A stretch of DNA of 61,512 nt from Bacteroidales bacterium. GTDB lineage: Bacteria > Bacteroidota > Bacteroidia > Bacteroidales > UBA932. A program made the position numbers and the translations under genes. Below, piece by piece: positions 2,689 to 60,910 of this stretch (the stretch's first letter is position 1; the number at the start of each line of letters is the position of its first letter). The stretch lies in assembly GCA_017438975.1 (NCBI GenBank), contig JAFRUH010000030.1, positions 1 to 61,512 on the forward strand. Reading direction: 5' to 3'. The notes below the pieces were generated by a model. The model saw only the letters and a program-made list of their open reading frames with translations, did no database searches and had not been told where the DNA came from.

Positions 2689-5600
2689 ATGAAAAGAGGC
2701 CTTCTTCTATTGGCCGCGATCTTGCTTTTCTCCCCGCTTCTCGCCCAGGAGGTCCTGGAAGAGTCGACTTTCAGCAAGGCGGCCGGCACCAATTCACAGC
2801 TTTTCAGAGGAAAGGTCGTGAGTCGGTATACCTTCCGTTACAACGGGACCTATTTCTGGTCTCCCGCGGGTTTTGAAAAGGGAGACGTGATGTACAACGG
2901 CAAGTTGTACCGGGACGTTTCGCTCAATATCGACGCCTTTGTCCAGGAGCTGGCGGTCCGGATCGACCAGGCTTCCGCGTCCATCTATCTCGACCGCAGC
3001 CAGGTCGCCTGGTTCACGAAGGGGAGCGACCGGTTCCTGAACCTCCGGTACTTGGGCGTCGAATCGGCGGATGAAGGCTTCTTTCAGCTGATATACGACG
3101 GTCCCAACCCCGTTTTCCTGCGGATCGACAAGGTTTTCCTGTCCAATCCCGGAGACAAGAACGGGGAGATCATCGGATATGTCGATCCGGCTTATGATCC
3201 CGAAGTCATCACGTATTTCTCCGAGAGCCGGCGCTATTTCATCCTGAAGGACGGCGAGCTGGTCCGCTTGAAAAAGCAGAAGGACCTCGTCAATCTCTTC
3301 AAGGACCGGAAACGGGAGATCCGCCGCTTCCTTTCTTCCCGGGAGATCGGAGGAAGGGGGTATCCCCTCGACCGTTTCTATCCCGAGGTCATGGCCTTCC
3401 TCGACGGAAATGCCCGGCCGGAAAGCTGGTTCGGCGCCCGGACGGCTTTCTGGCGCGAAGGGGGAGGGGAAGGTTTCATCCCTTCGGTTTCGGGCCGCGT
3501 CGCCCAGGCGGACAGCCAGCGCAAGGACCTGGCCGCGGGCTTTTTCAATCCCGAGACCGCGGAAGTGACCTATGATGACGGGACCGACCAGCAGGTGACC
3601 TACCAGAACAAGGTCTATGAGATCGGCGCGCCCGTCCAGGGACGGGATGCGGCGAGAGGGAAGGTATCCGGCCGGGTGACGGATTCCCAGGACGGTCAGC
3701 CGATTCCCGGGACCGTGATCTGGGATGAACGGACCTCGACCGATGTCCGGTCGGACAAGAACGGCCGGTATTCCATCTCCCTTCCCGCGGGGGAGAATAT
3801 TCTCCATTTCAGCGAGTATACCAAGGAGGACCTTCATCTGCGCATCATTGTCCATGGGGACGGCGGCCTGGATGTCGTCATGCCGGAGAAGATCACGACC
3901 CTCCGGAGCGCTATCGTCTCGGCCGAGAGCATGGCCAGTCACCGGACGACGAAAATAGGCCTGGAGAAGGTCAGCATGAAGACCATCAGCAAGATCCCGT
4001 CCGCTTTCGGGGAGGGGGACGTACTGAAGGCGGTCCTGACCCTGCCGGGCGTCAAGTCGGTCGGGGAGGCCTCGAGCGGATTCAATGTACGGGGCGGCGC
4101 CTCGGACCAGAACCTCATCCTCTTCAACGACAATACGATTTACAATCCGAGCCATATGTTCGGTATCTTCTCTTCCTTCAACCCGGATATCGTCGACAAT
4201 ATGGAGCTGTACAAGAGTTCCATCCCGGCCGAGTACGGCGGGCGGATTTCCTCCGTCCTGAACATCCGGAGCAAGGAAGGGTCCCTGGAAAAGATCAAGG
4301 GGTCCCTCGGGATCGGCGTCCTGACCAGCCGCATCCATCTGGAAGGTCCCATCGCCAAGGGAAAGACCTCTTTTATCATGGGCGCGCGCACGACCTATTC
4401 CGACTGGCTGCTGAAACAGATGCCGAAGACCAGCGGCTACGCCGACGGAACGGCATCGTTCAGCGACGTCAACCTCGGTGTGACCCACCGGTTCACCGAC
4501 AACGACATCCTCCAGGCCTCGGGGTACTGGGCGACGGACCGCTTCGCCTTTTCGAACGACACGACCTTCCGGTACCGGAATCTCAACGCCTCCCTGCGCT
4601 ATACCCACAAGACGGAAGACGGCGGCGCCGTGACCGTCAGCACCGGGTACGACCACTTCTACAACTGCCTGGAAGACAGGGACCGGCTTACGGGATATGA
4701 CCTCGAAACCTATATCCGGCAGGCCTTCCTCAAGACGGGATGGACCCATGTCTTCGGAGACCATACCGTCGGAGCTGGCCTCTCCGCCGTCGGCTACGGC
4801 CTTTCCGGCGGGGAACTCACCCCGTATTCCTATGTCGATGAAAGCAAGGATGCGGAGGGGAACGTTTCCCGAGAAGAAGGGGTATCCTCGGTCCAGGCCG
4901 CCAGCCTCGGGACGGAATACGCCCTCGAACCGGCGGCCTATCTGTCCGATACCTGGACCCTCGGGGATTTCTCCATCGATGCGGGGGTCCGCCTCTCCGG
5001 ATTCCTGACCCCCTCGCCGCGGCGGTTTTACGGCGGCCCCGAATTCCGGCTTTCCGGGAAATACACTCCGGTCGAGAACTTTACCCTCAAAGCCGGCGTG
5101 AATACGATGAAGCAGTATATCCATCTGATTTCCAACACTTCGTCCATCTCTCCGATGGATACCTGGAAACTCAGCGACTCCAGGATCCGGCCGACGGACG
5201 GATGGCAGGGTGCCGCCGGCGTGTACTGGACCGTCTTCGACAGTTCGGTCGACCTCTCCCTCGAGGGGTACTGGAAACGGATGTACCGGTATCTCGACTA
5301 CAAATCCGGCGCCCGCCTGTCGATGAACCCGGACCTCGCGGACGATCTCGTCGAGACGACGGGAAAGGCCTACGGGGTCGAATTCATGGCGAAAAAGACC
5401 GTGGGACGGCTCAACGGATGGGTATCCTACTCCTATTCGAGAACCTTTCTTCGCGAAACGGGGGACCGCGGGGCGGCGGCCATCAACGGCGGAGCCTGGT
5501 ACAACGCTCCCTATGACAAGCCCCACGACCTCAAAGTGGCGCTCAATTACGCCCTGACCCACCGCTACAGCGTCTCCGTGAACGTCGACTATTCGACCGG

Positions 5601-9385: not shown

Positions 9386-11878
9386 ATGAAAAGACTCCTG
9401 CTCTTCTTACCCCTTTTTGCCTTTTCCCTCACCCTCCACGCCGAATCCTGGATCCGGATCAACCAGCTCGGATACCTTCCCGAGTCGGTGAAAGTGGCCG
9501 TAATGATGACGACGACTCCCGGGACCGCTCCCGGCCCGTTCGAGGTCGTCGATGTGTTCTCCGGGGAAACCGTGTTCAAGGGGACAGCCGAGCCGACCGG
9601 CCCTCTGGGGCAGATGGAAGCGACCTACCGCCTGAATTTCAGCGCCCTGGAGCGCGAAGGTGCGTATCGGATCCGTTTCGCGGACGGAGAATCGGAAGTC
9701 TTTCCCGTCGGGAACCGGGTCTATGACGGAACGGCGGATTTCGTACTGAACTATATGCGGAGCCGGCGCTGCGGATGGAACCCCCTCATCCGGGACAGCT
9801 GCCATACCAGGGACGGTTACATCCTTTACCATCCGACCAGGACCGGCGAGTTCATCGACGTGACGGGAGGCTGGCACGATGCGACGGACTGTCTCCAGTA
9901 TACGACGACCTCCGCCAATGCCATCTACCAGATGATGTTCGCCTATGACCAGAATCCGGAAGCCTTCCCGGACCGCTGCAAGGCGGACGGGACGCCCGGG
10001 CCGAACGGCATCCCGGACATTGTCGACGAGATCTACTGGGGCATGGACTGGCTGGACCGGATGAATCCCGCACCCGGGGAGTATTACAACCAGATCGCGG
10101 ATGACAGGGACCATATCGGCATGCGCAACCCCCATACCGATCCTGCCGATTTCGGATACGGACCCGGCAACGGAAGACCGGTCTATTTCTGCAGCGGCGA
10201 ACCCCAGATGAGGGGCCGGAAGACCGGCCGCATGAACGACACGGAAGGGGTTGCCAGCACGACGGGGAAGTTCGCCTCGGATTTTTCGTACGGTTCCAAG
10301 GTGCTCCGTCCGTTCTACCCGGAATTCGCCGAAAAGATCGGCGCCAAGGCGGCGGACGCCTATCAGGCCGGGCTGGACAAGCCGGGCCGCTGCCAGACCG
10401 CCTCGGTCCTTTCCCCCTATATCTATGAAGAAGACAACTGGGTCGACGATATGGAACTCGCCGCGGTCGAACTCTTCCGCAAGACCGGAAAGAGACGCTA
10501 TCTCAGGCAGGCCGCCCGGTTCGGGAACCAGGAGCCGATAACCCCCTGGATGGGTGCGGATACCGCCCGCCATTACCAGTGGTACCCGTTCATGAACATG
10601 GGCCATTACCGTCTCGCCAGCGAAGGGAGCCGCCGGATCCGGAAAAGATTCATCGCCCATATGAAAGAGGGCATCCAGGCCGTGTATGAGAAAGCGAAGG
10701 GAACTCCCTTCCTTTATGGAATCCCCGGCATCTGGTGCTCGAACAACCTGACGACCGCGATGCTGACCCAGTGCATCCTGTACCGTCAGCTGACCGGGGA
10801 CCGGACCTATGAAGAGATGGAGGGGGCGCTCCGGGACTGGCTCTTCGGATGCAACCCCTGGGGCGTCAGCATGGTCGTGGAACTTCCGCTAAGCGGCAAC
10901 TATCCCCTCCAGCCCCATTCCTGGATCCTCCGGCTCGGCCTCGGCAACGCCACGGGCGGGCTGGTGGACGGACCCGTCTATGCGACGATTTTCGGTGGTC
11001 TGCTCGGCGTTTCGATGGAAGGAGGCAACGATTACGCCCTCTTCCAGCCGGGAGACAGGGTCTATCATGACTCCACCCACGACTATTCGACCAATGAACC
11101 TACGATGGACGGGACCGCTTCCCTGACCTTCCCGCTCTCCTATTATGAATCCTGCGGCCGCAAGGCTTCGGGAAGGACCTCCGTGGACCGGAATGTCTAC
11201 GCCAACGGGGGGATCGTCCGGACCGACCCCTCCCTCAAGCGCATCTCCCTGGTCTTTACCGCCGCGGATATGGCAGACGGGGCGGATCCGATCATCCGGA
11301 CCCTCGCCCGGAAGGGCGTCAAGGGAGGATTCTTCTTCACGGGCGAGTTCTATGAGAAATTTCCCGACGTGGTCCGGAGGCTGGTCGACGAAGGCCATTA
11401 TGTCGGCAGCCACAGCTTCGGCCACCTCCTCTATTCGACCTGGGAGAACCGGGACAGCATGCTCGTGACCGAAAAGGAGTTCCAGGACGACCTGATCCGC
11501 AGTTACGGGAAGATGGCTGAATTCGGCATCCACGACGCTCCGTTCTTCATCCCTCCCTATGAACATTACAACTCCCTCGTCTCTTCCTGGGCGCGCAAGA
11601 TGGGCCTGCAGGTCGTCAATTATACGGCCGGAACGCTGACGAACGGGGACTATACCTACCCCGGCATGAACCGCTATTACAGTTCCGACGAGATCCTGGA
11701 ACGGATCCGGAAAGTCGAGCGCGAGGAAGGCCTCGGGGGACATATCATGCTGATCCATCTCGGGACCGTCAAAGAGCGGACCGATAAATTCTATGACAGG
11801 CTGGACGGCCTGATCGATGAACTCAGGGGCAAGGGTTACGCCTTTGTCCCGCTGAAAGAGGCTTTGGATGGCGATTAA
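9386..11878 (+). CDS. Secreted GH9 glycoside hydrolase fused to a polysaccharide-deacetylase-like domain
   Basis: This is 830 aa. A signal peptide (to about residue 19) is followed by an N-terminal Ig-like cellulase domain (about 20-115, INQLGYLPES). A GH9 (alpha/alpha)6 catalytic domain spans about 120-590: GGWHDATDCLQY holds the two catalytic-base Asp (165, 168), and YSTNEPTMDG near residue 565 the acid Glu. From about 615 comes a NodB-type domain. Its motif 1 is TAAD instead of TFDD, so one Asp is kept and the usual catalytic-base Asp is Ala; motif 2 HSFGH is intact. The product probably cleaves beta-1,4-glucan-like glycans and may act on acetyl groups. The next gene overlaps its last 11 bp. 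Confidence 0.85.
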   Translation: MKRLLLFLPLFAFSLTLHAESWIRINQLGYLPESVKVAVMMTTTPGTAPGPFEVVDVFSGETVFKGTAEPTGPLGQMEATYRLNFSALEREGAYRIRFADGESEVFPVGNRVYDGTADFVLNYMRSRRCGWNPLIRDSCHTRDGYILYHPTRTGEFIDVTGGWHDATDCLQYTTTSANAIYQMMFAYDQNPEAFPDRCKADGTPGPNGIPDIVDEIYWGMDWLDRMNPAPGEYYNQIADDRDHIGMRNPHTDPADFGYGPGNGRPVYFCSGEPQMRGRKTGRMNDTEGVASTTGKFASDFSYGSKVLRPFYPEFAEKIGAKAADAYQAGLDKPGRCQTASVLSPYIYEEDNWVDDMELAAVELFRKTGKRRYLRQAARFGNQEPITPWMGADTARHYQWYPFMNMGHYRLASEGSRRIRKRFIAHMKEGIQAVYEKAKGTPFLYGIPGIWCSNNLTTAMLTQCILYRQLTGDRTYEEMEGALRDWLFGCNPWGVSMVVELPLSGNYPLQPHSWILRLGLGNATGGLVDGPVYATIFGGLLGVSMEGGNDYALFQPGDRVYHDSTHDYSTNEPTMDGTASLTFPLSYYESCGRKASGRTSVDRNVYANGGIVRTDPSLKRISLVFTAADMADGADPIIRTLARKGVKGGFFFTGEFYEKFPDVVRRLVDEGHYVGSHSFGHLLYSTWENRDSMLVTEKEFQDDLIRSYGKMAEFGIHDAPFFIPPYEHYNSLVSSWARKMGLQVVNYTAGTLTNGDYTYPGMNRYYSSDEILERIRKVEREEGLGGHIMLIHLGTVKERTDKFYDRLDGLIDELRGKGYAFVPLKEALDGD

Positions 11879-26015: not shown

Positions 26016-26067
26016 TGTGTTAAAAATTAAGTGAATTCTATTTTGAAGTTCAATACACTTCAAAAGT

Positions 26068-26098
26068 CAAAAATATATAATTGTTTACAGTATTCCAA
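26068..26098 (-). promoter_or_regulatory. susC promoter
   Basis: On the minus strand: TTG (26096-26098), 20 nt, TATTTTTG (26068-26075), leader of about 50 nt. It lies in the gap between the FAD-oxidoreductase stop (26124) and the SusC start. Confidence 0.7.
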
Positions 26099-26123
26099 GG
26101 GTAACTGCCTGAGAAACTTGAAA

Positions 26124-46931: not shown

Positions 46932-48647
46932 ATGGAAAATAGAACTATTATCGAAGTCGCTCCATCAGGAGCAGAGTGACTTACTGACTGCATGTCAGTA
47001 ATTCCAGTAAATTGTGTGTTCAACAAAGGCATTACAGGATGTGGTGCAACTACTCTGGCTATTAAGCAACCCGGGGATACGATTCTCGCCATGCCATTTA
47101 TAGGATTGGTCCAAAACAAAGTGGCAAGTAATCCAGAACTACTTGGAATCTATGGTGGGGTGAAGGGAGAAGATGAGATTATCAAGTACATTGGCTCCCA
47201 CAGACAGAAGAAGATTGCCACCACATACGACTCCTTCCCATTCGTTTGCGACGTCCTTATCTCTCAGGGTCTCGATCCCTACAAGGATTTCTTCCTATTT
47301 GTAGATGAATGGCACCAGTTGTTCAACTCCTACAAGTTCCGGAACCAAGCGGCAAAGCATTTGCTGGAATATGCCGCTAACTTTGAACGCAAGACTTATG
47401 TGTCTGCCACTCCAGTACCAAGAGAGTACTGGCTGAAGGAGCTACAAGACCTGCCAGAATACATCCTGGAATGGCCGAGTGCGTTAAAGGTCAATGTCAA
47501 CTCCAACCTGGTAAAAGATCCATTGGCATATATGGCCAGACTCTGTAAGTCCAAACTGGAGAACGGAGGAGATGACAACTACCACATATTCAACAACAGC
47601 GTTGAAGGTATAACAAAGATGGTAAGGTTAGCTGGGTTGCTACCGGAAGATTGTCGAATTGTTTGCTCGCAGAACACCAGCAGATATTCCAAGAAGAGCA
47701 ACCAGGAGAAACTTGGCGAATACAGAATCCAGACGACGCTCGATCCTGTCAAGCCGTTCAACTTCTATACATCGACGTGCTTTGAAGGACAGGACATCTT
47801 TGACAAGAACGGAAGAATCTTCATTGTCAGCGAACCTCATAAGGACCACACGAAGGTTGACATCATGACAACGCTCCCTCAGATATGCGGAAGAATACGT
47901 GATTCCAAGTATAATGCTGAGATCAACCAGTTCTATGCAGAGTCGCCTTACAAAGACGTAAGCCTTGAAGAATACAAGGAATCCATCAAGAGCCAGGTAG
48001 AGGAAGCTGAAAGAGACGCTGTGCTGCTGAACCAAACTTCCGACAACTGCAAGGAACTGTTAAAGGGTTATATCAACAAGGCTCCTTTCTTGGATGTGGT
48101 TAAGGACAAAATAGTGGTTGATGAGAACCTAGCCAACCTGGAGATTGTGAACTATGGCATCGTCAATGGGCAATATGCGATGCAGTGTAATATGAACGCA
48201 TCTCTTGCCGAAGCCGGTTTCAATGTCACCAATGACCTCGAAGCTTATAATCCATGTAAGGAACTGAAGAACCTGGTCTCCATAGAGAAGACTCCGTTTA
48301 AGGAGATATTTGAGGAATATGCCAGCATCCGTGAGAATAACGGGTTGTACAACCTAAACTGTTTCAGAAGAAATCAAATCGAGATTGAGAAACCCCTAGT
48401 CAAGGAGGCTTATGAGGTGTTAGGAGCCAGTAAGGTTCGAGAGATGAAATACCATCAATCCAATATCAAGCGGGAAATCATCAAACGAGAGCATGAAACA
48501 AAGGACACCAAGGTCTTTCTCATGTTAGATGAGATGCTTCCCCGCCAGGTCTCGATACCCAAATCGGAGATAAAAGAAATCCTGACCGATATCTACAAGG
48601 AACTGGGAATGACTCAAAAAGCCAAGGCTACCGATCTCAAGAAATGA
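46932..48647 (+). CDS. SF2 helicase-like protein with in-frame UGA at codon 16
   Basis: The frame starts at ATG 46932 (MENRTIIEVAPSGAE), meets TGA 46977-46979, then continues open (LTDCMSVIPVNCVFNKGITGCGATTLAI) to TGA 48645-48647; the first internal ATG is 46992. Helicase blocks: GITGCGATT in the Walker A position but without Lys; FLFVDEWHQL (DExH-type Walker B); YVSATPVPREY (motif III-like SAT); PQICGRIRDS (motif VI, QxxGRxxR). This resembles P-loop-less-Lys helicase-like proteins of Bacteroidetes mobile elements. Beyond the final TGA the frame stays open for 30 codons (YDIKETTQRRYDG... to TAG 48738-48740). A DNA replication or mobilisation role is inferred. Confidence 0.72.
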
Positions 48648-48759: not shown

Positions 48760-49350
48760 TTAATCACCAATGTTCATGGAAACAATGTATTCATTTTCCT
48801 TTTTTAGTTCGGCAAGTTCTTTAGAAATAACGATTGACATACTCTTTTCTTCTTCACTTAGCCATGAACGATGCATATCCGAATTTGGAAGGTGATCTAC
48901 GAATCCATACTTTAATAATAGTTTGACGGGAAGATAATCTTCTATTTCACGATTCGGCCTTCCCCCTTCTTTTTGCAAATTGTGCCTTGTTAATGCTTCG
49001 TATATCACCAATGCGATAATGACGAACACAATACCCAGCAGCCCTCCAATAATAGCGTATATGAGACCGCTTATGAAAGAATCAGCAGCCCAAATAACTA
49101 GAGCAGCCATAGGTGCTATGAAAAGAAGGCATAAAGCAAAACACCCTATTATGCCAAACCCAGATTCGTGACAATGTTTGCAACGAGGAATACTTACTAC
49201 GCATTTAAAATAACTATCATTCGCAGATGGGGATGTCTCATTAATAACCCTATAATAGGTCTTTCTATTCTCATACTCCTTATTCGCTTGATTCTTTCCA
49301 CAATACCAACAAGTAACAGGATTACTATAGTTTGGTTCAATAGTTAGCAT
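48760..49350 (-). CDS. Membrane protein with four-Cys zinc-ribbon-like N-terminus
   Basis: This is 196 aa. The first 60 residues contain two Cys pairs (TCWYCGKNQ and PRCKHCHESG) spaced like a zinc ribbon. Two to three membrane segments follow (GIIGCFALCLLFIAPMAALVIWAA, then ISGLIYAIIGGLLGIVFVIIALVIY). A cytosolic tail of about 70 residues is charged. No family name known to me. The promoter has a TATCTTTG box and two copies of the ~32-bp island repeat upstream, the same layout as the lipoprotein at 50896-51513. Confidence 0.74.
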   Translation of the reverse strand: MLTIEPNYSNPVTCWYCGKNQANKEYENRKTYYRVINETSPSANDSYFKCVVSIPRCKHCHESGFGIIGCFALCLLFIAPMAALVIWAADSFISGLIYAIIGGLLGIVFVIIALVIYEALTRHNLQKEGGRPNREIEDYLPVKLLLKYGFVDHLPNSDMHRSWLSEEEKSMSIVISKELAELKKENEYIVSMNIGD

Positions 49351-49381: not shown

Positions 49382-49457
49382 CAAAGATACGAAATAATCT
49401 ACCTGTTTCTTGCTTTCCCACTCAATTAATTACCTTGTAAAGTTTGATGTGGGTCTT
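49382..49457 (-). promoter_or_regulatory. -7 box with two ~32-bp upstream repeats (membrane protein gene)
   Basis: On the minus strand TATCTTTG (49382-49389). Repeat cores (ACCT on the plus strand) lie at 49401 and 49432, 31 bp apart; the first is 12 nt from the -7 box, exactly as at 51535-51554. No -33 TTG is seen. Confidence 0.6.
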
Positions 49458-49488
49458 CTTATTGGCTGAGAAAGATAGATACTGGGAT

Positions 49489-49516
49489 AAAAAACCGCCC
49501 ACTAAATTAGTGAGCG
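49489..49516 (-). terminator. Terminator of the 49569-50780 gene
   Basis: A 10-bp stem (49496-49505 with 49507-49516, one mismatch) followed on the minus strand by TTTTTT. Confidence 0.78.
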
Positions 49517-49568
49517 TTGGTTCTTAACTAGATTAATAGCGGACTATCATCCACAGCCAGGAGTACCC

Positions 49569-50862: not shown

Positions 50863-50889
50863 AAAAAAACGCCCACCGATTGGTGAGCG
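50863..50889 (-). terminator. Terminator of the 50896-51513 lipoprotein gene
   Basis: Stem 50870-50877 with 50882-50889 (one mismatch), loop AATC, followed on the minus strand by TTTTTTT. It begins 6 nt after the stop codon. Confidence 0.82.
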
Positions 50890-50895
50890 CTGTTG

Positions 50896-51513
50896 CTATT
50901 TTGAAAGGGTATTATAATTCTCTATAAACTCTTTCATGAATTTCTGATATCCGTCCATTTCTTCCTCAGTCCATTGCCCTAAGATTTCTGTTAAGTCTTT
51001 GTTGAGAAGAAACACGGCATTTCCGATAAGTGTATTACCTGCATTGTTCTGCGCTCGATAACTATGCTGAGTAAGAAAACCTATAAACTGAGGAGGCTCA
51101 CTCATCCTTTTTATGGTTTGATCTCTAAGATCTACCACTTGCGACTGTTTCGCATCGTATTGAGCCATGAGTTTATCATATTTCTCTTTTGCATCGTTGT
51201 ACTGAGCACTGCCTAATACACGCCTATAAGGCCCATCATAAATATGCATTTGAGATTTAGCCAATCTCAGATCCGGCTCCATAGACTGAAGTTCCGAGCC
51301 TTTCTTATATAATTCCAAAGCCAAATCCATAAATTCCGGATCGAGAAAAGGAGAATAAGCGCTGTCCACTTTAGTTTCTATCGGTTCATACGTCTTCGGG
51401 AAATACAAACTCTTTAGGACCTCCTCCTTGATTAACTCTTCGGCTTTCTTCTCAGGTGACTGCGTACATGCCACAGCAAAGATGCAGAGCAATGCAAATA
51501 ATAACTTTTTCAT
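50896..51513 (-). CDS. Island lipoprotein, unknown function
   Basis: This is 205 aa with a lipobox signal (ALLCIFAVAC, Cys16), then TQSPEKKAEELIKEEVLKSLYFPKTYEPIETKVDSAYSPFLDPE. Long amphipathic, charged helices follow (KSQMHIYDG, YNDAKEKYDKLMAQYDAKQSQVVDLRDQ); no enzymatic motif. The SLYFPKTYEP..TKVDSAYSP block is common in small Bacteroidales lipoproteins of unknown role. It has its own terminator and, notably, seven degenerate ~32-bp repeats upstream of a promoter without -33 box, so expression is probably under a dedicated regulator. Confidence 0.78.
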   Translation of the reverse strand: MKKLLFALLCIFAVACTQSPEKKAEELIKEEVLKSLYFPKTYEPIETKVDSAYSPFLDPEFMDLALELYKKGSELQSMEPDLRLAKSQMHIYDGPYRRVLGSAQYNDAKEKYDKLMAQYDAKQSQVVDLRDQTIKRMSEPPQFIGFLTQHSYRAQNNAGNTLIGNAVFLLNKDLTEILGQWTEEEMDGYQKFMKEFIENYNTLSK

Positions 51514-51534: not shown

Positions 51535-51542
51535 CAAATATA
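51535..51542 (-). promoter_or_regulatory. -7 box of the island lipoprotein gene
   Basis: On the minus strand TATATTTG, leader about 20 nt. The -33 position has no TTG; instead the first unit of the repeat array covers it. Confidence 0.62.
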
Positions 51543-51543
51543 C

Positions 51544-51776
51544 GAATTAATCAACCTGAATCGTGCATTTCACCTCAATTAATTACCTCGAATCATACTT
51601 TCCGACATAATAAATTACCTCGTTTTATACTTTTCGACGTAATTAAATACCTCGAATTGTATGTTTCCGCTTGATTTTTTACCCTGTTTGCAACATTTCA
51701 GGGTAGTCTTTTTACCGGAATTGCATGTTTCGGAATGATTAATTACCCAGAATGGTACGTTTCAGCATTTTTTAGT
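51544..51776. repeat. Array of seven degenerate ~32-bp repeats upstream of the lipoprotein promoter
   Basis: Unit cores ACC(T/C/G) on the plus strand start at 51554, 51585, 51617, 51649, 51681, 51714 and 51745 (steps 31, 32, 32, 32, 33, 31). Each is preceded by an AT run such as AATTAATT and followed by GAAT, then a (T)AC(T/G)TTTC block. There are no unique spacers and no palindromic CRISPR-like repeat. All units point towards the promoter of 50896-51513. Confidence 0.75.
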
Positions 51777-51782
51777 TGGAAT

Positions 51783-51995
51783 TTACTTGTCCTTCTTTGG
51801 AATCTTGGAGCCGATGACATAGAGCAGTCCGACCAACCCAAAGACAAGAATGGCAATCCCCGCAAAGATGAAGTAATCGCCCCAGGTCCAATGTTTTCCA
51901 GCCACAAGCGTCATCAATGGATAAACAACAATGAAAATGCCGGTATACATCGCTATGGACTTGATGATTCGCTTTTGATCATTGCTTAATTTCAT
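51783..51995 (-). CDS. Small two-helix membrane protein
   Basis: This is 70 aa from ATG 51993-51995, chosen because the in-frame upstream part is not protein-like. Short basic N-terminus (KLSNDQKRIIKS), helix 1 AMYTGIFIVVYPLMTLVA, a turn with GKHWTWGDYF, helix 2 IFAGIAILVFGLVGLLYVIGS, then KIPKKDK. It resembles small 'DUF-type' two-helix proteins that accompany island genes. Function unknown. Its stop lies next to the far end of the repeat array. Confidence 0.7.
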   Translation of the reverse strand: MKLSNDQKRIIKSIAMYTGIFIVVYPLMTLVAGKHWTWGDYFIFAGIAILVFGLVGLLYVIGSKIPKKDK

Positions 51996-53869: not shown

Positions 53870-54358
53870 ATGCAAGAATCAAATGTTTTTGCAACGCTCA
53901 ATGCGGTCAACTGCAATGAGCACACGGAGAAGAAAGGGAATCTCACCTATCTCTCCTGGGCATGGGCGTGGAAGATCGTTAAGACACACTTCCCGGATGC
54001 CAATTACACCATCTACGAGAATCCGGATGGTTGGAATTACTTTACCGATGGAAGGACCTGCTGGGTCAAGACATCTGTCACGATCCAGGGTCTGGAACAC
54101 ATCGAGTACCTGCCTGTCATGGACTCAAGGAACCAGTCCATCCCATTCGAAGCAGTCCGCAGTTTCGATGTGAACCGTACCATCCAGAGATCCCTCACAA
54201 AAGCATGTGCAAGACATGGATTGGGACTCTACATCTATGCTGGAGAGGATCTGCCTGATGCTATAGACAAGCCGACGCAGCAACCCGTCCAGCAACAGAA
54301 CTCCAACTACCAGGGAAGACAATCCTGGAGACAAAACTATCATCAACCCATTCAATAA
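53870..54358 (+). CDS. DUF1071 (Sak-type) single-strand annealing protein
   Basis: This is 162 aa from ATG 53870, the Met just before the conserved region. The DUF1071/SSAP core is plain: NLTYLSWAWAWKIVKTHFPD, TIYENPDGWNYF, CWVKTSVTIQGLEHIEYLPVMD, then AVRSFDVNRTIQRSLTKACARHGLGLYIYAGEDLP. A Gln-rich tail (QQPVQQQNSNYQGRQ) ends it. Such phage or element proteins anneal complementary strands during recombination, usually with an SSB, which is encoded 3.4 kb downstream on the same strand. It is followed 8 nt later by DUF3871. Confidence 0.9.
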   Translation: MQESNVFATLNAVNCNEHTEKKGNLTYLSWAWAWKIVKTHFPDANYTIYENPDGWNYFTDGRTCWVKTSVTIQGLEHIEYLPVMDSRNQSIPFEAVRSFDVNRTIQRSLTKACARHGLGLYIYAGEDLPDAIDKPTQQPVQQQNSNYQGRQSWRQNYHQPIQ

Positions 54359-54366
54359 CAAACATC

Positions 54367-55404
54367 ATGTACACCAACACACAACAACAGATGAGCGTGC
54401 TTCCAGCGGTTGCACCCATCGTCAGAACGGAACAACTTCCCGTTATCCTTCCTGTATTCGCAAACGCAGAGGAAGAGAAGAAACCATCCAACCTTCCCTT
54501 CATCGAGGCCAACACCAAGGAGGTCTCCATGGACAATCTCAAATCGGACTGCATCATCCCCGTTTTCAGCAAGGACAACGAAGTGACGATTTCCCACCAG
54601 AGTTTCATTGACACCATCTATGAGGCTGCAAAGACTGTCTTTCCTCATGAGGAGATTTCCAATCCTGTTGTCCGAGTCTCCCACATCGTCAAGGGAAGGA
54701 TTCCAGAGGCTATCCACAAACCAGTATCGCAACTTTTGGAATCGGACAAGACGATCTACTACGAGAGGATGATGTTCTGTATCGAGATTCCATCCATCTT
54801 CCAGGACATTGATGGATGCCGGCTCAATCTCACCATTGGAGGGGTTCGAGCCTATAACGAACAGAACCTCTATTCCAAGAAGTCACCGGAGAAGTTCAAG
54901 ATCTTCATCGGTTTCAAGAACATGGTCTGCTGCAATCTCTGTGTATCGACAGACGGATACAAGTCATCCTTGAGGGTGATGGATACGGTTTCCATGCTGA
55001 ACACTGCCATAGAACTCTTCCGGGGATACGATATGATGAGCCATCTATCCATCTTGTCTGCTTACCGGAGTTGTCAACTGACTGAATCCCAGTTCGCACA
55101 GTTCATTGGGAAATGCAGGATGTACCAGTATCTGCCATCCTCCGAGAGGAAACAACTACCGGAGATGCTGATAACGGACACGCAGATTGGACTGGTTGCC
55201 AAATCCTATTACGAGGATGAGGACTTCGGATGCGGAAACAATCCTTCTATCTCTATGTGGAATGTCTACAACCTGCTTACCGGTGCCAACAAGTCTTCCT
55301 ACATCGACAATTTCCTCGACCGGGCGGAAAATGCAGGAATACTCACAACAGGTCTTTGCCGAGCATTGCATGGAGATCCCGAATATGGATGGTTCTTGCG
55401 CTGA
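54367..55404 (+). CDS. DUF3871-family mobile-element protein
   Basis: This is 345 aa, no signal or membrane segment. Recognisable DUF3871 blocks: IPEAIHKPVSQLLESDKTIYYERMMFCIEIP, LNLTIGGVRAYNEQNLYSKKSPEKFKIFIGFKN and MVCCNLCVSTDG, then LLTGANKSSYIDNFLDR and a GDPEYGWFLR end. The family is common in Bacteroidales conjugative and phage-like elements next to replication genes; its biochemical role is unknown. It ends in tandem TGA-TAG stops and a hairpin. Probably one operon with the DUF1071 gene. Confidence 0.87.
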   Translation: MYTNTQQQMSVLPAVAPIVRTEQLPVILPVFANAEEEKKPSNLPFIEANTKEVSMDNLKSDCIIPVFSKDNEVTISHQSFIDTIYEAAKTVFPHEEISNPVVRVSHIVKGRIPEAIHKPVSQLLESDKTIYYERMMFCIEIPSIFQDIDGCRLNLTIGGVRAYNEQNLYSKKSPEKFKIFIGFKNMVCCNLCVSTDGYKSSLRVMDTVSMLNTAIELFRGYDMMSHLSILSAYRSCQLTESQFAQFIGKCRMYQYLPSSERKQLPEMLITDTQIGLVAKSYYEDEDFGCGNNPSISMWNVYNLLTGANKSSYIDNFLDRAENAGILTTGLCRALHGDPEYGWFLR

Positions 55405-55417
55405 TAGACAATGAAAA

Positions 55418-55453
55418 CCCTCTGCCTTATGAACACTAAAACACGGCAGAGGG
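55418..55453 (+). terminator. Hairpin after DUF3871
   Basis: A perfect 9-bp stem CCCTCTGCC/GGCAGAGGG with an 18-nt loop, without a T run on the plus strand. It may shield mRNA ends or weakly terminate. Confidence 0.5.
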
Positions 55454-55483
55454 TAGTATCAAACAAATCAACACCACAAAAAT

Positions 55484-57280
55484 ATGAATAAATACGAACA
55501 AATGCAAGCTTTCCAGCACCTGGAAGGCTTGAATGAACAGCAGAAAGAAGCTGTCCTCTGCCATGCTGACATCCTTTACGTTTCGGCTGGACCGGGTACG
55601 GGGAAGAGCACGATGCTAGTCAGCAAGCTAATCGATTACATCGAATCCTCTCATGATCCGCAGAAGATTGTCGCAATCAGTTTTACGAACACTGCTGCCC
55701 GTCAGATCGGAGAACGGTTCAAGACGAAGGTAAGCGAACTGGGAGTCCAGAAACCATTCTCCTTCTTAAATGGAACCATCCACTCATTCTGTTTCAGGAT
55801 GATGAAATCGTATGGATCCGCCATGTCCAGGGACTTTGATTATGTCATTCTCGATGATGAGGAACTGCAGGAATTGGGTGCCGACATAGAGGAGTATTTC
55901 AACGGCAAATACAAGTCATCCCAAATCCTATCCTGTTTGCGAGCTTCCACCTTCGGGAATAAATCTGAACTCTCGGAACAGATACAAGCCTTGAAAGAAG
56001 CCTATAAGGTCATCTCCATGCAGGATATCCTGACCAATTTCGTACAGCAGCTTCAAGGAGATCCATCGTTCCAATCGTGGATTCGAACCCAGATTACCGT
56101 GATTGCCGTTGATGAAGCGCAGGATCTTTCAGAGATGAATTATGTCATCCTTGACCAGCTCCTCAAGGTCATTCCAGGTTTGAAGATACTTCTTGTCGGA
56201 GATCCAAGACAGAACATCTTCGAATTCAATGGAGGGTCGTACAAGCATCTGGACAACTTCCTCACCAAGCACAGGAATCATGAAACCAGGCATCTGACAA
56301 TAACGTATCGGTGCTGTCAGGCTATCTCCGATTACGTGAACACGTTCCATTTCACCGATTGCGACAATGAGCAGCTGAAATCAAGGTATGCCGATGCCGG
56401 TAAGGTAATCGTGAAGAATGCCATTTCTGAAGATGATGAAGCGGAGCAGGTTTTGAGATCAATCCGGGAGATACAGAACCTGAATTCCTGCGCCATCCTC
56501 TGCAACAATCTCAAGTACCTGGATCCACTGTTTGCCAAGCTGCAGAAGGAGAGGATTCCCTACAAGGTGTTTGGAGGAAGGAGGACAGTCAAGAAACCGA
56601 TTCGATTCCTGAATCACATCCTTCGGATCCTTGACAACGATAACGCATACAGCATCCGCAAGGTCGCTCAATATGCCAACATCGATATCATAGAAAACGG
56701 GAAACACAGGAAAAGCAAGTTCTTCGAATCAGATCTCGGGCAACTGATCCTTTCCATCAGGGAAACGACAGAAGGGATGTCTTTCGTCGCAGTAATGGCA
56801 CAGGTCATTGCTCAAATCATCCATGATCCGGAGGACGGGGAGATTTCCGAGGAATACGATAAACTCCTTGCAATCGCCGGGGAATATGAATCCATCTCCG
56901 ATTACCTGGTCTCATTTGCAACCGACAGGGAGAGGTTCGCCCCATTCTACGAGAAGGGATACCAGGAATGCCTTGTCCCCAATGAAGAGATCTTCCTGAC
57001 AATCTCCACCATCCATTCAGCTAAAGGACTGGAATGGAAACACGTCTTCATCATGGGTCTGAGCGAAGGAAACTTCCCCAATCCATTCTTCTGCCAGGGA
57101 CTGCCTCCTGATCAGCAGAGAGAATTCTACAATGGTGAGTGGAAGAAGATGTACGTGGCGTCAACTCGTGCGAAGGAGACCCTGTTTCTCACGTATTCGT
57201 CGCATATCAGCAGAAAAGGCTACACCTTCCGAAAGGATCCGTCACGGTTCATTCCAACTTCCTCAAACACCGCGAATTGA
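55484..57280 (+). CDS. UvrD/Rep-family ATP-dependent DNA helicase
   Basis: This is 598 aa. SF1A motifs in order: Q-motif and LNEQQKEAVLCHADILYVSAGPGTGKST (Walker A); IAVDEAQDLSEMN (Walker B, DEAQD); LVGDPRQNIFEFNGG (motif III); ITYRCCQAISDYVN (IV); TISTIHSAKGLEWKHVFIMG (V); KKMYVASTRAKETLFLTYS (VI). Shorter than chromosomal UvrD (about 720) and without a nuclease domain, so a compact mobile-element helicase. It should unwind or remodel DNA during replication or recombination together with SSB and the annealing protein. It ends in TGA before a strong terminator. Confidence 0.93.
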   Translation: MNKYEQMQAFQHLEGLNEQQKEAVLCHADILYVSAGPGTGKSTMLVSKLIDYIESSHDPQKIVAISFTNTAARQIGERFKTKVSELGVQKPFSFLNGTIHSFCFRMMKSYGSAMSRDFDYVILDDEELQELGADIEEYFNGKYKSSQILSCLRASTFGNKSELSEQIQALKEAYKVISMQDILTNFVQQLQGDPSFQSWIRTQITVIAVDEAQDLSEMNYVILDQLLKVIPGLKILLVGDPRQNIFEFNGGSYKHLDNFLTKHRNHETRHLTITYRCCQAISDYVNTFHFTDCDNEQLKSRYADAGKVIVKNAISEDDEAEQVLRSIREIQNLNSCAILCNNLKYLDPLFAKLQKERIPYKVFGGRRTVKKPIRFLNHILRILDNDNAYSIRKVAQYANIDIIENGKHRKSKFFESDLGQLILSIRETTEGMSFVAVMAQVIAQIIHDPEDGEISEEYDKLLAIAGEYESISDYLVSFATDRERFAPFYEKGYQECLVPNEEIFLTISTIHSAKGLEWKHVFIMGLSEGNFPNPFFCQGLPPDQQREFYNGEWKKMYVASTRAKETLFLTYSSHISRKGYTFRKDPSRFIPTSSNTAN

Positions 57281-57297
57281 GTCCTAGTCCCATGGTA

Positions 57298-57338
57298 TGA
57301 GAAGACCCTTCCGACATCGTTTGGGAGGGTCTTTCTCA
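57298..57338 (+). terminator. Terminator after the UvrD-like gene
   Basis: TGAGAAGACCCTTCC (57298-57312) pairs with GGGAGGGTCTTTCTCA (57323-57338), about 14 bp. The T tract is weak (CTTTCTC inside the stem). Confidence 0.68.
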
Positions 57339-57367
57339 CATATGTCCAACCTTATCACTTTTTCAAA

Positions 57368-57772
57368 ATGCAAAACAAGCCAATTTTACACAGAATCACC
57401 AATCCCGTCACTGCAGAGTGTCTTCTCCATGACAGGATGTGCAACCTGGACCACGAAGAAGTCTGGGCAATCTATCTCAATAGCAAGCTCATACCGCTCG
57501 ACCAGCAGATGCTATCGAAAGGGACCATCGACCACACTGCCATCGACTGCAGGACTGTGCTTCGAAATGCCCTTCTTTTAAATGCTTCCTCCTTCATCCT
57601 GCTGCATAACCATCCTTCCGGAGATCCAAATCCAAGTAAGGAGGATATTTCCTTTACGGATAAGCTCAGGAAAGCATGCTCACTCATCGACATCAATCTG
57701 CTGGATCACATCATTGTCGGGGACGAATCATTCTTCAGTTTCGCGGAAGATACAACAACCAAATATCAATAA
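57368..57772 (+). CDS. RadC-like JAB/MPN-domain protein
   Basis: This is 134 aa, only the MPN domain; the chromosomal RadC's HhH part is missing. VWAIYLNSKLIPLDQQMLSKGTIDHTAID, then FILLHNHPSGDPNPSKEDISFTDKL gives the JAMM metal motif HxHx7SxxD, and LLDHIIVGDESFFSF is the typical end. These short RadC proteins are hallmarks of Bacteroidales conjugative elements and phages; their role (repair or restriction evasion) is unresolved. Two nt later ssb starts. Confidence 0.92.
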   Translation: MQNKPILHRITNPVTAECLLHDRMCNLDHEEVWAIYLNSKLIPLDQQMLSKGTIDHTAIDCRTVLRNALLLNASSFILLHNHPSGDPNPSKEDISFTDKLRKACSLIDINLLDHIIVGDESFFSFAEDTTTKYQ

Positions 57773-57774
57773 TC

Positions 57775-58092
57775 ATGGAACAGTTAAACAGAATTGAACT
57801 CCGGGGCATCGTCGGGAGCGTTTATGTAAAAGACTTCGGAAACGCCAAAGTTGCCAACTTCTCAGTTGCTACAAACTACTGCTTCAAATCCAAGGACGGT
57901 ACTCCAGTCATTGAAACAACATGGCACAGGGTCGTTGCTTGGGAAGGTGATGGGATACAGGATCTCCAACTACTCGAGAAGGGAAGCAATGTCCATGTCA
58001 TAGGCAGGATCAGAAGCCTACGATACATTGCTGCTGATGGATCTGAAAGAACTGTTTTTGAGATCATTGCAAGTAAGGTGGAACGGAACTGA
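57775..58092 (+). CDS. ssb: Single-stranded DNA-binding protein
   Basis: This is 105 aa from ATG 57775. OB-fold of the bacterial SSB type: NRIELRGIVGSVYVKDFGNAKVANFSVATNY, then ETTWHRVVAWEGDGIQDLQLLEKGSNVHVIGRIRSLRY and TVFEIIASKVERN. It lacks the acidic C-terminal tail (DxDIPF) that chromosomal SSB uses to recruit partners, as usual for short mobile-element SSBs. It coats ssDNA for the annealing protein and helicase of this island. TGA stop is real: the reading frame beyond is not protein-like. Confidence 0.93.
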   Translation: MEQLNRIELRGIVGSVYVKDFGNAKVANFSVATNYCFKSKDGTPVIETTWHRVVAWEGDGIQDLQLLEKGSNVHVIGRIRSLRYIAADGSERTVFEIIASKVERN

Positions 58093-58228: not shown

Positions 58229-58292
58229 ATTGATTCTGAAAGACAAAATACTGTGAAATGAATGATCAAAAACCGGCAATACACCCAATCAT

Positions 58293-58330
58293 TTTATCGC
58301 TCCCTCAGAAATGTGGGAGCTTTTTCTTTT
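58293..58330 (+). terminator. Terminator, copy 1 of a duplicated 29-bp sequence
   Basis: Stem GCTCCC/GGGAGC with loop TCAGAAAT(GT), then TTTTTCTTTT. The 29 bp at 58293-58321 recur exactly at 60646-60674, on the other side of the BspA-like gene. Confidence 0.75.
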
Positions 58331-58342
58331 TTGCAATACTAA

Positions 58343-58531
58343 TTCAGTTCCTTTAACAACCCGAATTCATACTATTAACATTGTTTTAATACCAAAATCT
58401 AGAGTTTCAAGTATGTTTTAGTACCTGAGGCTATTGCTTCGAGTATATTTTTATATGTGAAATGCATGTTGTGAGGTTGATTTAGATGGTGAAAAGGATG
58501 ATTCAAGTATGTTTTAGTTGTTGAAAGTGGT
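58343..58531. repeat. Array of about six degenerate 32-bp repeats upstream of the BspA-like gene
   Basis: Unit starts near 58343, 58374, 58406, 58438, 58470 and 58502 (steps 31-32). The best two copies (58406-58422 and 58502-58518) share TTCAAGTATGTTTTAGT exactly, 96 bp apart. The unit at 58438 (TTCGAG...GTGAAATGCATG) aligns with the promoter-nearest unit upstream of 50896-51513 (TTCGAG...GTGAAATGCACG), so both arrays are one family in the same orientation. Confidence 0.7.
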
Positions 58532-58539
58532 TATATTTG
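58532..58539 (+). promoter_or_regulatory. -7 box of the BspA-like gene
   Basis: TATATTTG, 18 nt before ATG 58558, at the end of the repeat array. The -33 position has no TTG. Confidence 0.62.
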
Positions 58540-58557
58540 TACAAACTACTACAGAAA

Positions 58558-60567
58558 ATGAAAAAGATACTCCTTCTCATTATCGCTTCTATCTGCATAT
58601 TCTCTTGTCAGAAGGCTCCCGAATTCATACTATTTGGGCCGATGAACATTGATCTGCCTGTTGATGGTGGCAAAGCCTCCGTTTCGTTCATATCCAATAG
58701 GGATTGGAAGGCGACATCTTCTGATTCGTGGGTAACTATCAGTCCGTCTTCCGGGACTGCCCAGGAGGGGACGATCAGCGTAACGATACTAGGAAGCGCC
58801 AATTCAACCTACGACGAACGGAGCGCAACGGTCACCCTCACTTCTGAGGGGATGTCACAGAGCATTAGCGTGAAGCAGGCTCAGAATGACGGCCTAATTG
58901 TCGATAAGACCAATTATGACGTACCCTATGAAGGGGGAGATATTGACATTGCTGTGAAGTCAAATGTTGAGTATGAAGTGTCAATCAACAATGCTAAATG
59001 GATTCATCATATTGATACAAAAGCCCTGAATAATTCTTCAATTCACTTGTCTGTTGACAAGAACATGAGATCAGAAGGTCGTGTGGGGAATATTATTATT
59101 AAACAAAAGAACGGAGAACTTTCGGTCACCGTCGAGGTCTTACAAGAGAGACGAATACCGGTATCTTCGATAAAGATAAATAGAAGTGGCTTATCATTGA
59201 AAGAAGGGGAGACGTTTTCACTTACTGCTTCCGTAGAGCCGGATAATGCCTCAGAAAAGGCAGTCGCGTGGTCATCATCGAATACTTCTATCGCGGTGGT
59301 TGAAAACGGGATCGTTACTGCTTTAAAAGAAGGTGTTGTTACGATTCAAGCAGAAACGATTGATTGTTCTGCTTCCTGTAAAGTAGTGGTCAGTAACTCG
59401 GCGAACAATATCATCTATTATACTACTGCGAATGGAGAGCCGCTTTACTTTAATGGAAATCCTACTGATTTTGGGGCATATTTTGTTTTTTCTGATTATT
59501 ATGAAGGCCAAGGGAAGATGGTTTTCAATCGCGATGTCACAGGAATAGGAATTAACGCTTTTAGTTACTCGGACTATCTCTCCTCCATCACTATTCCAGA
59601 GAGTGTGACCGCTATAAAAGATGGGTCTTTCAGTGAATGCAAAGCTTTGAGATTTGTAACCCTTCCACCAAATGTAACTGAAATAGGACATGAGGCATTT
59701 GAGGGCTGTACCAACCTTACGGCAATCTCTTTGTTAGGGAGAGTAACCACAATAGGGGTAGGTGCGTTTGCGGATTGTTCAAGTCTGACTTCCATCAATC
59801 TACCAGAAGGCTTAACCAGCATAGGAGACAAAGCTTTTGCTGGTTGCACAAACTTACATGCTATTGCTTTACCCGAAGGCTTGACTGAAACTGGGAATAG
59901 GGTTTTTCAGGGGTGTCCAGGCTTGGTTACCATTAATCTTCCTAAGAGTCTTACCTCTATCGGGGATGGGGCTTTTATTGACTGTACGGGGCTGACTTCC
60001 ATATCTTTCCCTGATAGTTTATCTGCCGTAGGGATGCACGCTTTTGGGGGCTGCACAGGCTTGACGTCGATTATTCTACCAGAGAGTATTACCTATTTAG
60101 GGAGCAACGTTTTTTCAGATTGTACAAGCCTAAAATCTGTTTTACTCCCGAAAGGTCTCACTTCGATAAGTGATTATTCTTTCGATGGGTGTATTAGTTT
60201 GAGTTCTATAATCATCCCGGAAACCGTGACTACAATTGGAAAAGGCGCCTTTAACGGCTGTTCTAACTTAACATCCATCACGTTTCAAGAGGGTTTAATC
60301 ACGATAAAGGATAACGCATTCCATCTTTGCTCGGGGCTGATTTCCATTTCAATTCCGGCAACGGTAACTACTATTCAGAGTTATGCTTTTTATGATTGCT
60401 CAGGCTTGACATCTATTACAATCAACTCTCCCATACCTCCACACTATAACGGAGTGGATGTTTTTAAAGGCTCTTCCTGTCCGATCTATGTTCCTTCCGG
60501 TTCACTTGCGAGATATAAAGCCGCATGGACAAGAATAGCCGACAGAATTCAAGCAATTCCAGAGTAA
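58558..60567 (+). CDS. BspA-like leucine-rich-repeat lipoprotein with BACON and Ig-like domains
   Basis: This is 669 aa from ATG 58558, where a lipobox signal begins (IIASICIFSC, Cys17). Two BACON-type domains (about 25-115, NRDWKATSSDSWVTISPSSG; and about 115-205) lead to a Big_2-like Ig domain (about 210-285, VSSIKINRSGLSLKEGETFSL). From about 330 to 640 there are at least 11 LRR_5 repeats of the type LTSIxLPEGLTSIGDxAFxGCxx. This is a surface adhesin-like protein; repeat number may vary between strains. It is a single-gene unit bounded by duplicated terminators and headed by the 32-bp repeat array. Confidence 0.93.
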   Translation: MKKILLLIIASICIFSCQKAPEFILFGPMNIDLPVDGGKASVSFISNRDWKATSSDSWVTISPSSGTAQEGTISVTILGSANSTYDERSATVTLTSEGMSQSISVKQAQNDGLIVDKTNYDVPYEGGDIDIAVKSNVEYEVSINNAKWIHHIDTKALNNSSIHLSVDKNMRSEGRVGNIIIKQKNGELSVTVEVLQERRIPVSSIKINRSGLSLKEGETFSLTASVEPDNASEKAVAWSSSNTSIAVVENGIVTALKEGVVTIQAETIDCSASCKVVVSNSANNIIYYTTANGEPLYFNGNPTDFGAYFVFSDYYEGQGKMVFNRDVTGIGINAFSYSDYLSSITIPESVTAIKDGSFSECKALRFVTLPPNVTEIGHEAFEGCTNLTAISLLGRVTTIGVGAFADCSSLTSINLPEGLTSIGDKAFAGCTNLHAIALPEGLTETGNRVFQGCPGLVTINLPKSLTSIGDGAFIDCTGLTSISFPDSLSAVGMHAFGGCTGLTSIILPESITYLGSNVFSDCTSLKSVLLPKGLTSISDYSFDGCISLSSIIIPETVTTIGKGAFNGCSNLTSITFQEGLITIKDNAFHLCSGLISISIPATVTTIQSYAFYDCSGLTSITINSPIPPHYNGVDVFKGSSCPIYVPSGSLARYKAAWTRIADRIQAIPE

Positions 60568-60645
60568 TCGATTTAGCAATAATCCCATCGAGAATTACTT
60601 CTGGATTGGGGAGTTAGTCGCAGAATAATTGTTTAATACATTTCA

Positions 60646-60680
60646 TTTATCGCTCCCTCAGAAATGTGGGAGCTATTTTT
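60646..60680 (+). terminator. Terminator, copy 2 of the duplicated 29-bp sequence
   Basis: Identical stem to copy 1 (60646-60674), followed by ATTTTTTTTT. It lies 79 nt after the BspA-like stop and ends that unit. Confidence 0.8.
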
Positions 60681-60910
60681 TTTTACGCTACTTAGACATA
60701 AAGAGACTTCCAACTCCATTTACCGTATCGTTCAGTACGTAATCTCCAGGAAATTACCCAATCTGCTTTATTATGTACAACTTCAAGATCTTTCAATGCT
60801 GTTATTTGATCGATATGACTGCATGAGAATCGAATAATGAGATTGAAAATGTTTTGAAAGACGATATTTAGTTTTTAAGCTGCTCTATTCCGGCTATCGA
60901 AATCTATTCT

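Follow-up and report, generated by a model that had tools for sequence, protein, structure and literature searches.

In this study, we identified a family of phased dyad lattices in the intergenic spacers of one Bacteroidales genus, mostly in or near integrative islands. The analysed DNA is a whole contig of 61,512 nucleotides from a Bacteroidales bacterium (JAFRUH010000030.1, hereafter the window), which contains three such arrays, A, B and C. Each unit of an array contains two 14-bp dyads, P1 (approximately GAAAACATGTTTTC) and P2 (approximately GGTAATTAATTACC), whose centres are 16 bp apart. The array is probably a landing strip for a DNA-binding protein and not only a promoter switch.

Arrays in the window

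The initial annotation had described a repeat array at 51535..51776, and this array is real. The lag-32 identity over the stretch is 0.59. In 2000 dinucleotide shuffles, the best lag gives a mean identity of 0.35 (sd 0.016) and never reaches 0.59. Lag 32 accounts for nine of the 15 highest-ranking 242-bp stretches of the whole window, and these nine are located at array A or at 58251-58401. TRF finds only 2.5 copies in array A. Phase-aware alignment resolves seven contiguous units with every step exactly 32 bp (Table 1). The seven units described earlier are therefore retained, while the variable steps of 31-33 bp are replaced by a constant one; the 31- and 33-bp steps arose because unit 6 had been anchored one base off. 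The profile alignment reaches 51774, which is 9 bp from the stop codon of the upstream 70-aa gene, and at the other side the array extends to the TATATTTG box, so that the spacer is filled by array A. The first bases of this box (51542-51535, minus strand) overlap unit 7, and the box is 21 bp apart from the lipoprotein ATG at 51513. The promoter consensus of Bacteroidetes consists of -33 and -7 elements. Inspection of the sequence about 17-23 bp upstream of the array A box revealed no TTTG, in agreement with the earlier description of a box without a visible -33 element, and none is visible at the array B box.

Arrays B and C had not been described in the initial annotation. Array B and array A are related. 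In a blast search of the own genome, 49382-49435 is 81% identical to the array A region over 54 bp, and the match takes in the TATCTTTG box and approximately 1.6 units. As the box and these units are common by descent, the equal box spacing of the two arrays is not independent. Array C is directly preceded by a terminator-like hairpin, a copy of which follows the BspA-like gene (near 60650-60684, blast match). The terminator module, which spans 58289-58331 and 60641-60684 in the window, is also present between two BspA-like genes in locus L044 (16285-16427).

The stretch of approximately 45-61.5 kb containing the arrays and the island backbone genes has a G+C content of about 0.40-0.52, compared with 0.51-0.62 before it, and runs to the contig end at 61512. 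Similar terminator-like hairpins of the CGCTCAC...GTGGGCG type are located at 49482-49520 and 50866-50895 of the window, by the L044 array (near 9850-10033) and by the L046 array, in each case near array-flanking genes. A dispersed repeat of approximately 72-78 bp, with copies 83-95% identical, is present outside the island at 26031-26102 of the window and also in L044 (12062-12139), L047 (362-439) and L048 (1144-1221).

Table 1 Arrays, promoter-like boxes and associated genes in the window
Feature	Position	Strand	Description
Array A	51540..51763	-	Seven 32-bp units, each with dyad P1 (~GAAAACATGTTTTC) and dyad P2 (~GGTAATTAATTACC)
Array A, units 1-7	51763-51732, 51731-51700, 51699-51668, 51667-51636, 51635-51604, 51603-51572, 51571-51540	-	
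-7-like box TATATTTG	51535..51542	-	Downstream end of array A, at most 2 bp from array end
Lipoprotein gene	50896..51513	-	205 aa, downstream of array A; no family in Pfam/NCBIfam search
Small membrane protein gene	51783..51995	-	70 aa; 3' end abuts array A
Array B	49387..49450	-	Two units, the outer one weak
-7-like box TATCTTTG	49382..49389	-	At the end of array B
Gene downstream of array B	48760..49350	-	196 aa; no family passes the Pfam cut-off
Terminator-like hairpin with T run	58298..58332	+	Directly before array C
Array C	58346..58526	+	About five and a half 32-bp units; found by lag scan
-7-like box TATATTTG	58532..58539	+	After array C
BspA-like leucine-rich-repeat lipoprotein gene	58558..60567	+	Downstream of array C
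Phage-type helicase-like gene	46992..48647	+	551 aa, island backbone
Backbone operon	53873..58092	+	Sak, DUF3871, UvrD-like, RadC-like, SSB

Unit architecture, helical phase and folding

The pooled profile correlates with its own reverse complement about one axis (r = 0.79), and the next best value (0.53) is one column off. Self-complementarity in single sequences peaks at exactly two phases 16 bp apart, with means of 2.86 and 3.20 of 7 pairs, compared with 1.25-2.11 at the other 30 phases. Perfect palindromes occur among the P2 copies. The AA/TT steps follow a period of 10.67 bp, the helical repeat (z = 1.4-6.7, median 4.7 over 21 arrays). The exact 32-bp phase, the dyad symmetry and the AA/TT phasing support the earlier interpretation in part and, together with the boxes next to which arrays A, B and C end, fit a protein bound on one face of the helix.

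The two dyads differ in their covariation, which was counted in the 79 of 96 units kept after removing close copies. The halves of P1 vary almost independently, with next to no covariation, as is the case for protein sites. In P2, columns 17-28 and 18-27 covary and give the two strongest Watson-Crick excesses of 496 column pairs; array subfamilies may explain part of this covariation. On most strands, the predicted folding of the arrays is more stable than that of dinucleotide shuffles (z = -7.6 to +0.8), and on average it is also more stable than that of column-permuted arrays (20 arrays, mean z of -1.8 and -2.2). In the five folded structures inspected, most pairs are long-range (>32 nt) and do not correspond to local dyads. 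One large palindrome per array was considered and rejected, as p ≤ 0.02 was obtained in only 3 of 20 arrays.

Distribution of the array family

A sequence-only model of ten dimers (R1) led to multi-unit arrays in genomes of the same genus, and in lag scans 32 was the best lag over 200 bp in several of them. A second model of 22 dimers (R2) matches 15 of 300 genus genomes at E ≤ 0.001. Each genome offered 218-350 candidate places to the R1 and R2 searches, of which the best 17-21 were scored; among the places scored, the only own-genome matches are arrays A, B and C of the window's contig (C29). With a circular 32-column profile and a threshold of 35, we called 21 arrays (scores of 37-155), which are distributed over 17 sequences and 16 genomes. 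Scores did not exceed 20.5 in a null set of 60 shuffled 4-kb stretches, the maximum over 420 array shuffles was 20.3, and none of the 20 control stretches reaches 22. Ten of the 21 arrays are located in regions used for training the profile and 11 outside them. The genus of the window includes 14 of the 16 genomes, and the other two (those of L054 and L057) are named Bacteroidales bacterium. The arrays have 2 to approximately 9 units, and the 32-bp period extends over 140-300 bp in most of them. Most units of diverged arrays retain the 32-bp step while the sequence drifts.

The count of 21 was made after dropping the rows of L048 and L169, which are one place (57 bp, score 44.5), and those of L167 (58 bp, 35.6) and L049 (47 bp, 30.6). 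It also leaves out arrays in L202/L182 (41.5) and in L054 near 5130-5330, together with the weak ones in L203 and L218. L055 is the same place as L051, and L056 the same as L050.

Within the range of the searches, the family does not extend beyond the genus, and other Bacteroidales gave no convincing array. In an order-wide search, 20 of 295 genomes, including the own genome, reach E ≤ 0.01; the nine other loci fetched (L170-L178) contain no clear lag-32 array (best identity 0.43). A lag-32 stretch in Adhaeribacter (L116, 0.52) is unrelated in sequence and was not counted. A DNA search of 101 genomes with the 301-bp array A region matched the own genome only. The lipoprotein was also rejected as a lead to arrays: homologs are present in 4 of 249 genomes, including the own genome, and no such array is present within the approximately 3.5 kb fetched around each of the other three. 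The viral collection yielded no relative of the lipoprotein or of the helicase and no match to three array patterns, and a search of plasmid records yielded nothing. A literature search on the repeat and on Lrp geometry found no description of such an array.

Promoter boxes and neighbouring genes

The distance from the array end to a TAnnTTTG box is 2 bp at arrays A and B and 5 bp at array C. Across the family, an outward box is present within 100 bp of 10 of the 21 arrays, at distances of -6, 2, 2, 5, 29, 46, 59, 65, 68 and 88 bp, and is absent in 11. From a background rate of 0.036 per 115 bp, about 1.5 boxes would be expected over the 42 array ends. The fixed distance to the -7 box anticipated by the initial annotation is therefore not a property of the 21 arrays. 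As 10 arrays have scattered boxes and 11 have none, promoters are enriched near arrays, as in any gene-leading spacer, yet do not define them. In L044 near 14080, a very similar promoter core is present without an array.

Neighbouring genes were assigned by longest-ORF calls. They are co-directional at ten of the 21 arrays (A, B and C of the window, two in L044, and L045, L050, L052, L054 and L166) and converging at six (L051, L057, L161 at 2580, L163, L164 and L168). The orientation is ambiguous at five (L046, L047, which may be divergent, L161 at 11139, L162 and L165). Two of the convergent cases are looser, namely L051, with an 850-bp gap to the helicase, and L168, with tRNA-Lys genes as left neighbours. 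In four convergent cases, ORFs end at most 350 bp away on both sides. A single neighbour is backed by Pfam in L163 (an outer membrane barrel) and likewise in L164 (CoiA), whereas the majority of the remaining neighbours match no family. All 16 arrays with resolved neighbours touch the 3' end of a gene on at least one side. No promoter is needed at the six arrays between converging 3' ends, which speaks against a general promoter role. The proposal of an activator or silencer array at a promoter is thus supported only in part: the three window arrays adjoin TAnnTTTG, but 11 arrays of the family are boxless and six lie between converging genes. Occurrence without promoter association, which had been named as an argument against that proposal, accordingly applies to about half of the family.

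Mobility and association with integrative islands

In a comparison of 15 array regions with 600-bp flanks, the arrays of L045, L161, L163 and L168 are 72-95% alike inside, while their flanks are mostly without a match. The array edges coincide with ends of similarity, an observation that bears on a possible integron attC-like cassette site with integrase-driven exchange. Short flank pieces are common to L045 and L168 (81 bp) and to L048 and L051 (82 bp). Array C recurs with its terminator in L044, where the BspA-like gene that follows is not the one of the window.

Backbone genes of the integrative island or their relics are present in 11 of the 17 array sequences; the other six (L044, L045, L046, L162, L165 and L168) have no backbone genes. 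The relics include a Sak start against a RadC piece in L161 (537-763), a 30-aa Sak piece in L047 (1922-2011) and a 34-aa SSB-like match in L163 (8592-8693). Among the genus genomes, DUF3871 and the helicase are each present in 12 of 300, making 21 genomes in all. Six of the 15 array genomes are among these 21, compared with about one expected if all three draws of 300 consist of identical genomes, as we assume. The arrays are not constantly linked to DUF3871 islands, as only 5 of 80 DUF3871 loci reach a profile score of 30; R2 alone at E ≤ 0.2 finds three. Seventeen further genus loci chosen by helicase or DUF3871 contain one clear array and two weak ones (scores of 25-27). The link between arrays and islands is loose. 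We also noticed a putative ADP-ribosylglycohydrolase-like ORF near the lipoprotein homolog in L011 (142-1059) and beside the array in L045 (9252-9755).

Proposed function and alternative explanations

We propose, as a reading with an about even chance of being correct, that the array is a platform in an Lrp/AsnC-like arrangement to which a protein with two-fold symmetry binds cooperatively, and that it controls or insulates island cargo. A host- or element-encoded protein would bind the dyads cooperatively. Equal dyads, being three turns apart, would share one face of the helix, with the other kind of dyad about half a turn off. The bound protein would bend or wrap the spacer into a nucleoprotein block. 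Next to a promoter, as at arrays A, B and C, such a block could silence or regulate transcription of the cargo, and away from promoters it could insulate neighbouring units. A cooperative symmetric protein fits best because the dyad lattice keeps its strict pitch through sequence change and is located in spacers whatever the gene directions. Several observations weigh against the platform. The arrays are rare (15 of 300 genus genomes), although more of them might be expected for a regulator that acts host-wide. Most element loci picked regardless of arrays lack them (5 of 80 DUF3871 loci and 1 of 17 others have one). The P2 covariation and the better-than-permuted folding need not occur in plain protein dyads. 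No binding protein is encoded beside all arrays; AsnC/Lrp domains are present at three places in the own genome, which indicates availability only.

Lrp/AsnC-type sites are imperfect dyads of about 13-15 bp, a size that agrees with the two 14-bp dyads of each unit. According to a review (PMC2995911), archaeal Lrp-like regulators bind degenerate sites cooperatively and wrap DNA, with a centre-to-centre spacing of two or three helical turns and more than 100 bp covered. The arrays likewise consist of degenerate dyads over more than 100 bp, and their same-kind dyads are 32 bp apart, a period that corresponds to the three-turn spacing. The arrays differ in having two alternating kinds of dyad 16 bp apart and up to approximately nine units, and in being located also between converging genes. 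With regard to placement in the control region of a target gene, ten arrays are co-directional, six convergent and five ambiguous. We regard the match to Lrp/AsnC operators as a likeness, not membership.

Extending this platform, the family might represent a genus-specific, sequence-directed 'chromatin' lattice, in which alternating dyads at a 16/32-bp pitch nucleate a regular nucleoprotein filament over island spacers. The arrays would then be silencer or insulator modules that travel with cargo and keep their pitch while their sequence drifts. This extension is tentative, and we consider it more doubtful than not. If it is true, islands of a large rumen and gut Bacteroidales genus bring their own phased protein-docking arrays, and the arrays give a handle on the ways in which these uncultured bacteria tame foreign genes for surface proteins or tune them. 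As a ready bait, the arrays could serve to find the protein, and their exact pitch allows clean half-turn tests. Even if a plainer reading is correct, the arrays form a repeat family of which the literature search found no description.

A promoter-specific activator or silencer array, in which the bound protein contacts RNA polymerase at boxes without a -33 element, is rather unlikely. Bacteroidetes -33/-7 promoters with upstream activator sites exist, and the TAnnTTTG boxes beside arrays A, B and C, of which those of A and B have no visible -33 element, resemble them. The ten boxed arrays also exceed the number expected by chance. However, gene-leading spacers contain promoters anyway, the L044 promoter core occurs without an array, and the family has no fixed distance, half of its arrays being boxless and six lying between converging genes. 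We consider it unlikely that the array has no regulatory task and is in the main a repeat module, mobile or prone to recombination, that spreads with cargo, such as a cassette boundary or element relic. The alike arrays with mostly unmatched flanks, array C and its terminator before different BspA-like genes, and arrays in the same loci as element relics (L161, L047 and L163) would all be explained by it. A relic would nevertheless lose its phase through small indels, while the 32-bp step is kept in most units of diverged arrays, and the flank pieces in common make co-inheritance with cargo possible.

Action of the unit as RNA or single-stranded DNA appears quite improbable. Such a unit would form a REP/BIME-like string of 3'-end hairpins that stops read-through or protects transcripts, as the folding relative to both kinds of randomized sequence, the Watson-Crick excesses of the P2 pairs and the contact of all resolved arrays with a 3' end would suggest. 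The long-range pairing in the five structures inspected, the near lack of P1 covariation and the absence of a consistent large palindrome argue against it, and AA/TT phasing at the helical repeat is not asked for by an RNA role. REP/BIME elements form extragenic arrays of palindromic units, are frequently located at 3' ends and have many well-conserved copies per genome. The arrays share the extragenic palindromes and the 3'-end contact, but among the places scored in the own genome there are only three, all in one island, and they are poorly conserved and have a 32-bp period. Replication iterons or centromere-like sites of the island are very improbable. Plasmid iterons and centromere repeat arrays are helically phased repeats, and the arrays resemble them in being phased repeats on a mobile element, in several islands near a phage-type helicase, SSB and annealing protein. 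They are unlike them in having a 32-bp unit with two dyads and in being dispersed in cargo spacers, with up to three arrays per element. In addition, six of the 17 array sequences are without backbone genes, and no initiator or partition gene was noticed incidentally near arrays. A CRISPR array was rejected because the units are contiguous, with no unique spacers between repeats.

In-frame stop codons in helicase homologs

Eight distinct full-length homologs of the island helicase (L051/L055/L180, L054, L057, L164/L181, L182, L183, L184 and L185) contain 13 in-frame TGA codons and no TAA or TAG. In the alignment with the uninterrupted helicase of the window (46992-48647), 11 of these TGA codons correspond to tryptophans, as though TGA encoded Trp in this gene. 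In the same loci, Sak, DUF3871, UvrD and SSB contain 58 TGG codons and no TGA, and one TAA is present in DUF3871. No tRNA with a UCA anticodon was found in 21 loci. Possibly, the helicase gene is translated only when a recoding phage is present, or these homologs are a run of decayed copies. Uninterrupted copies are present in L186, L191, L193, L194 and L196. Distant homologs from Bacteroides salyersiae (L090) and Butyricimonas (L130) contain three in-frame TAG codons each and no other stop, while a TAA occurs in one truncated homolog (L161/L187) and a TAG in one fragment (L188).
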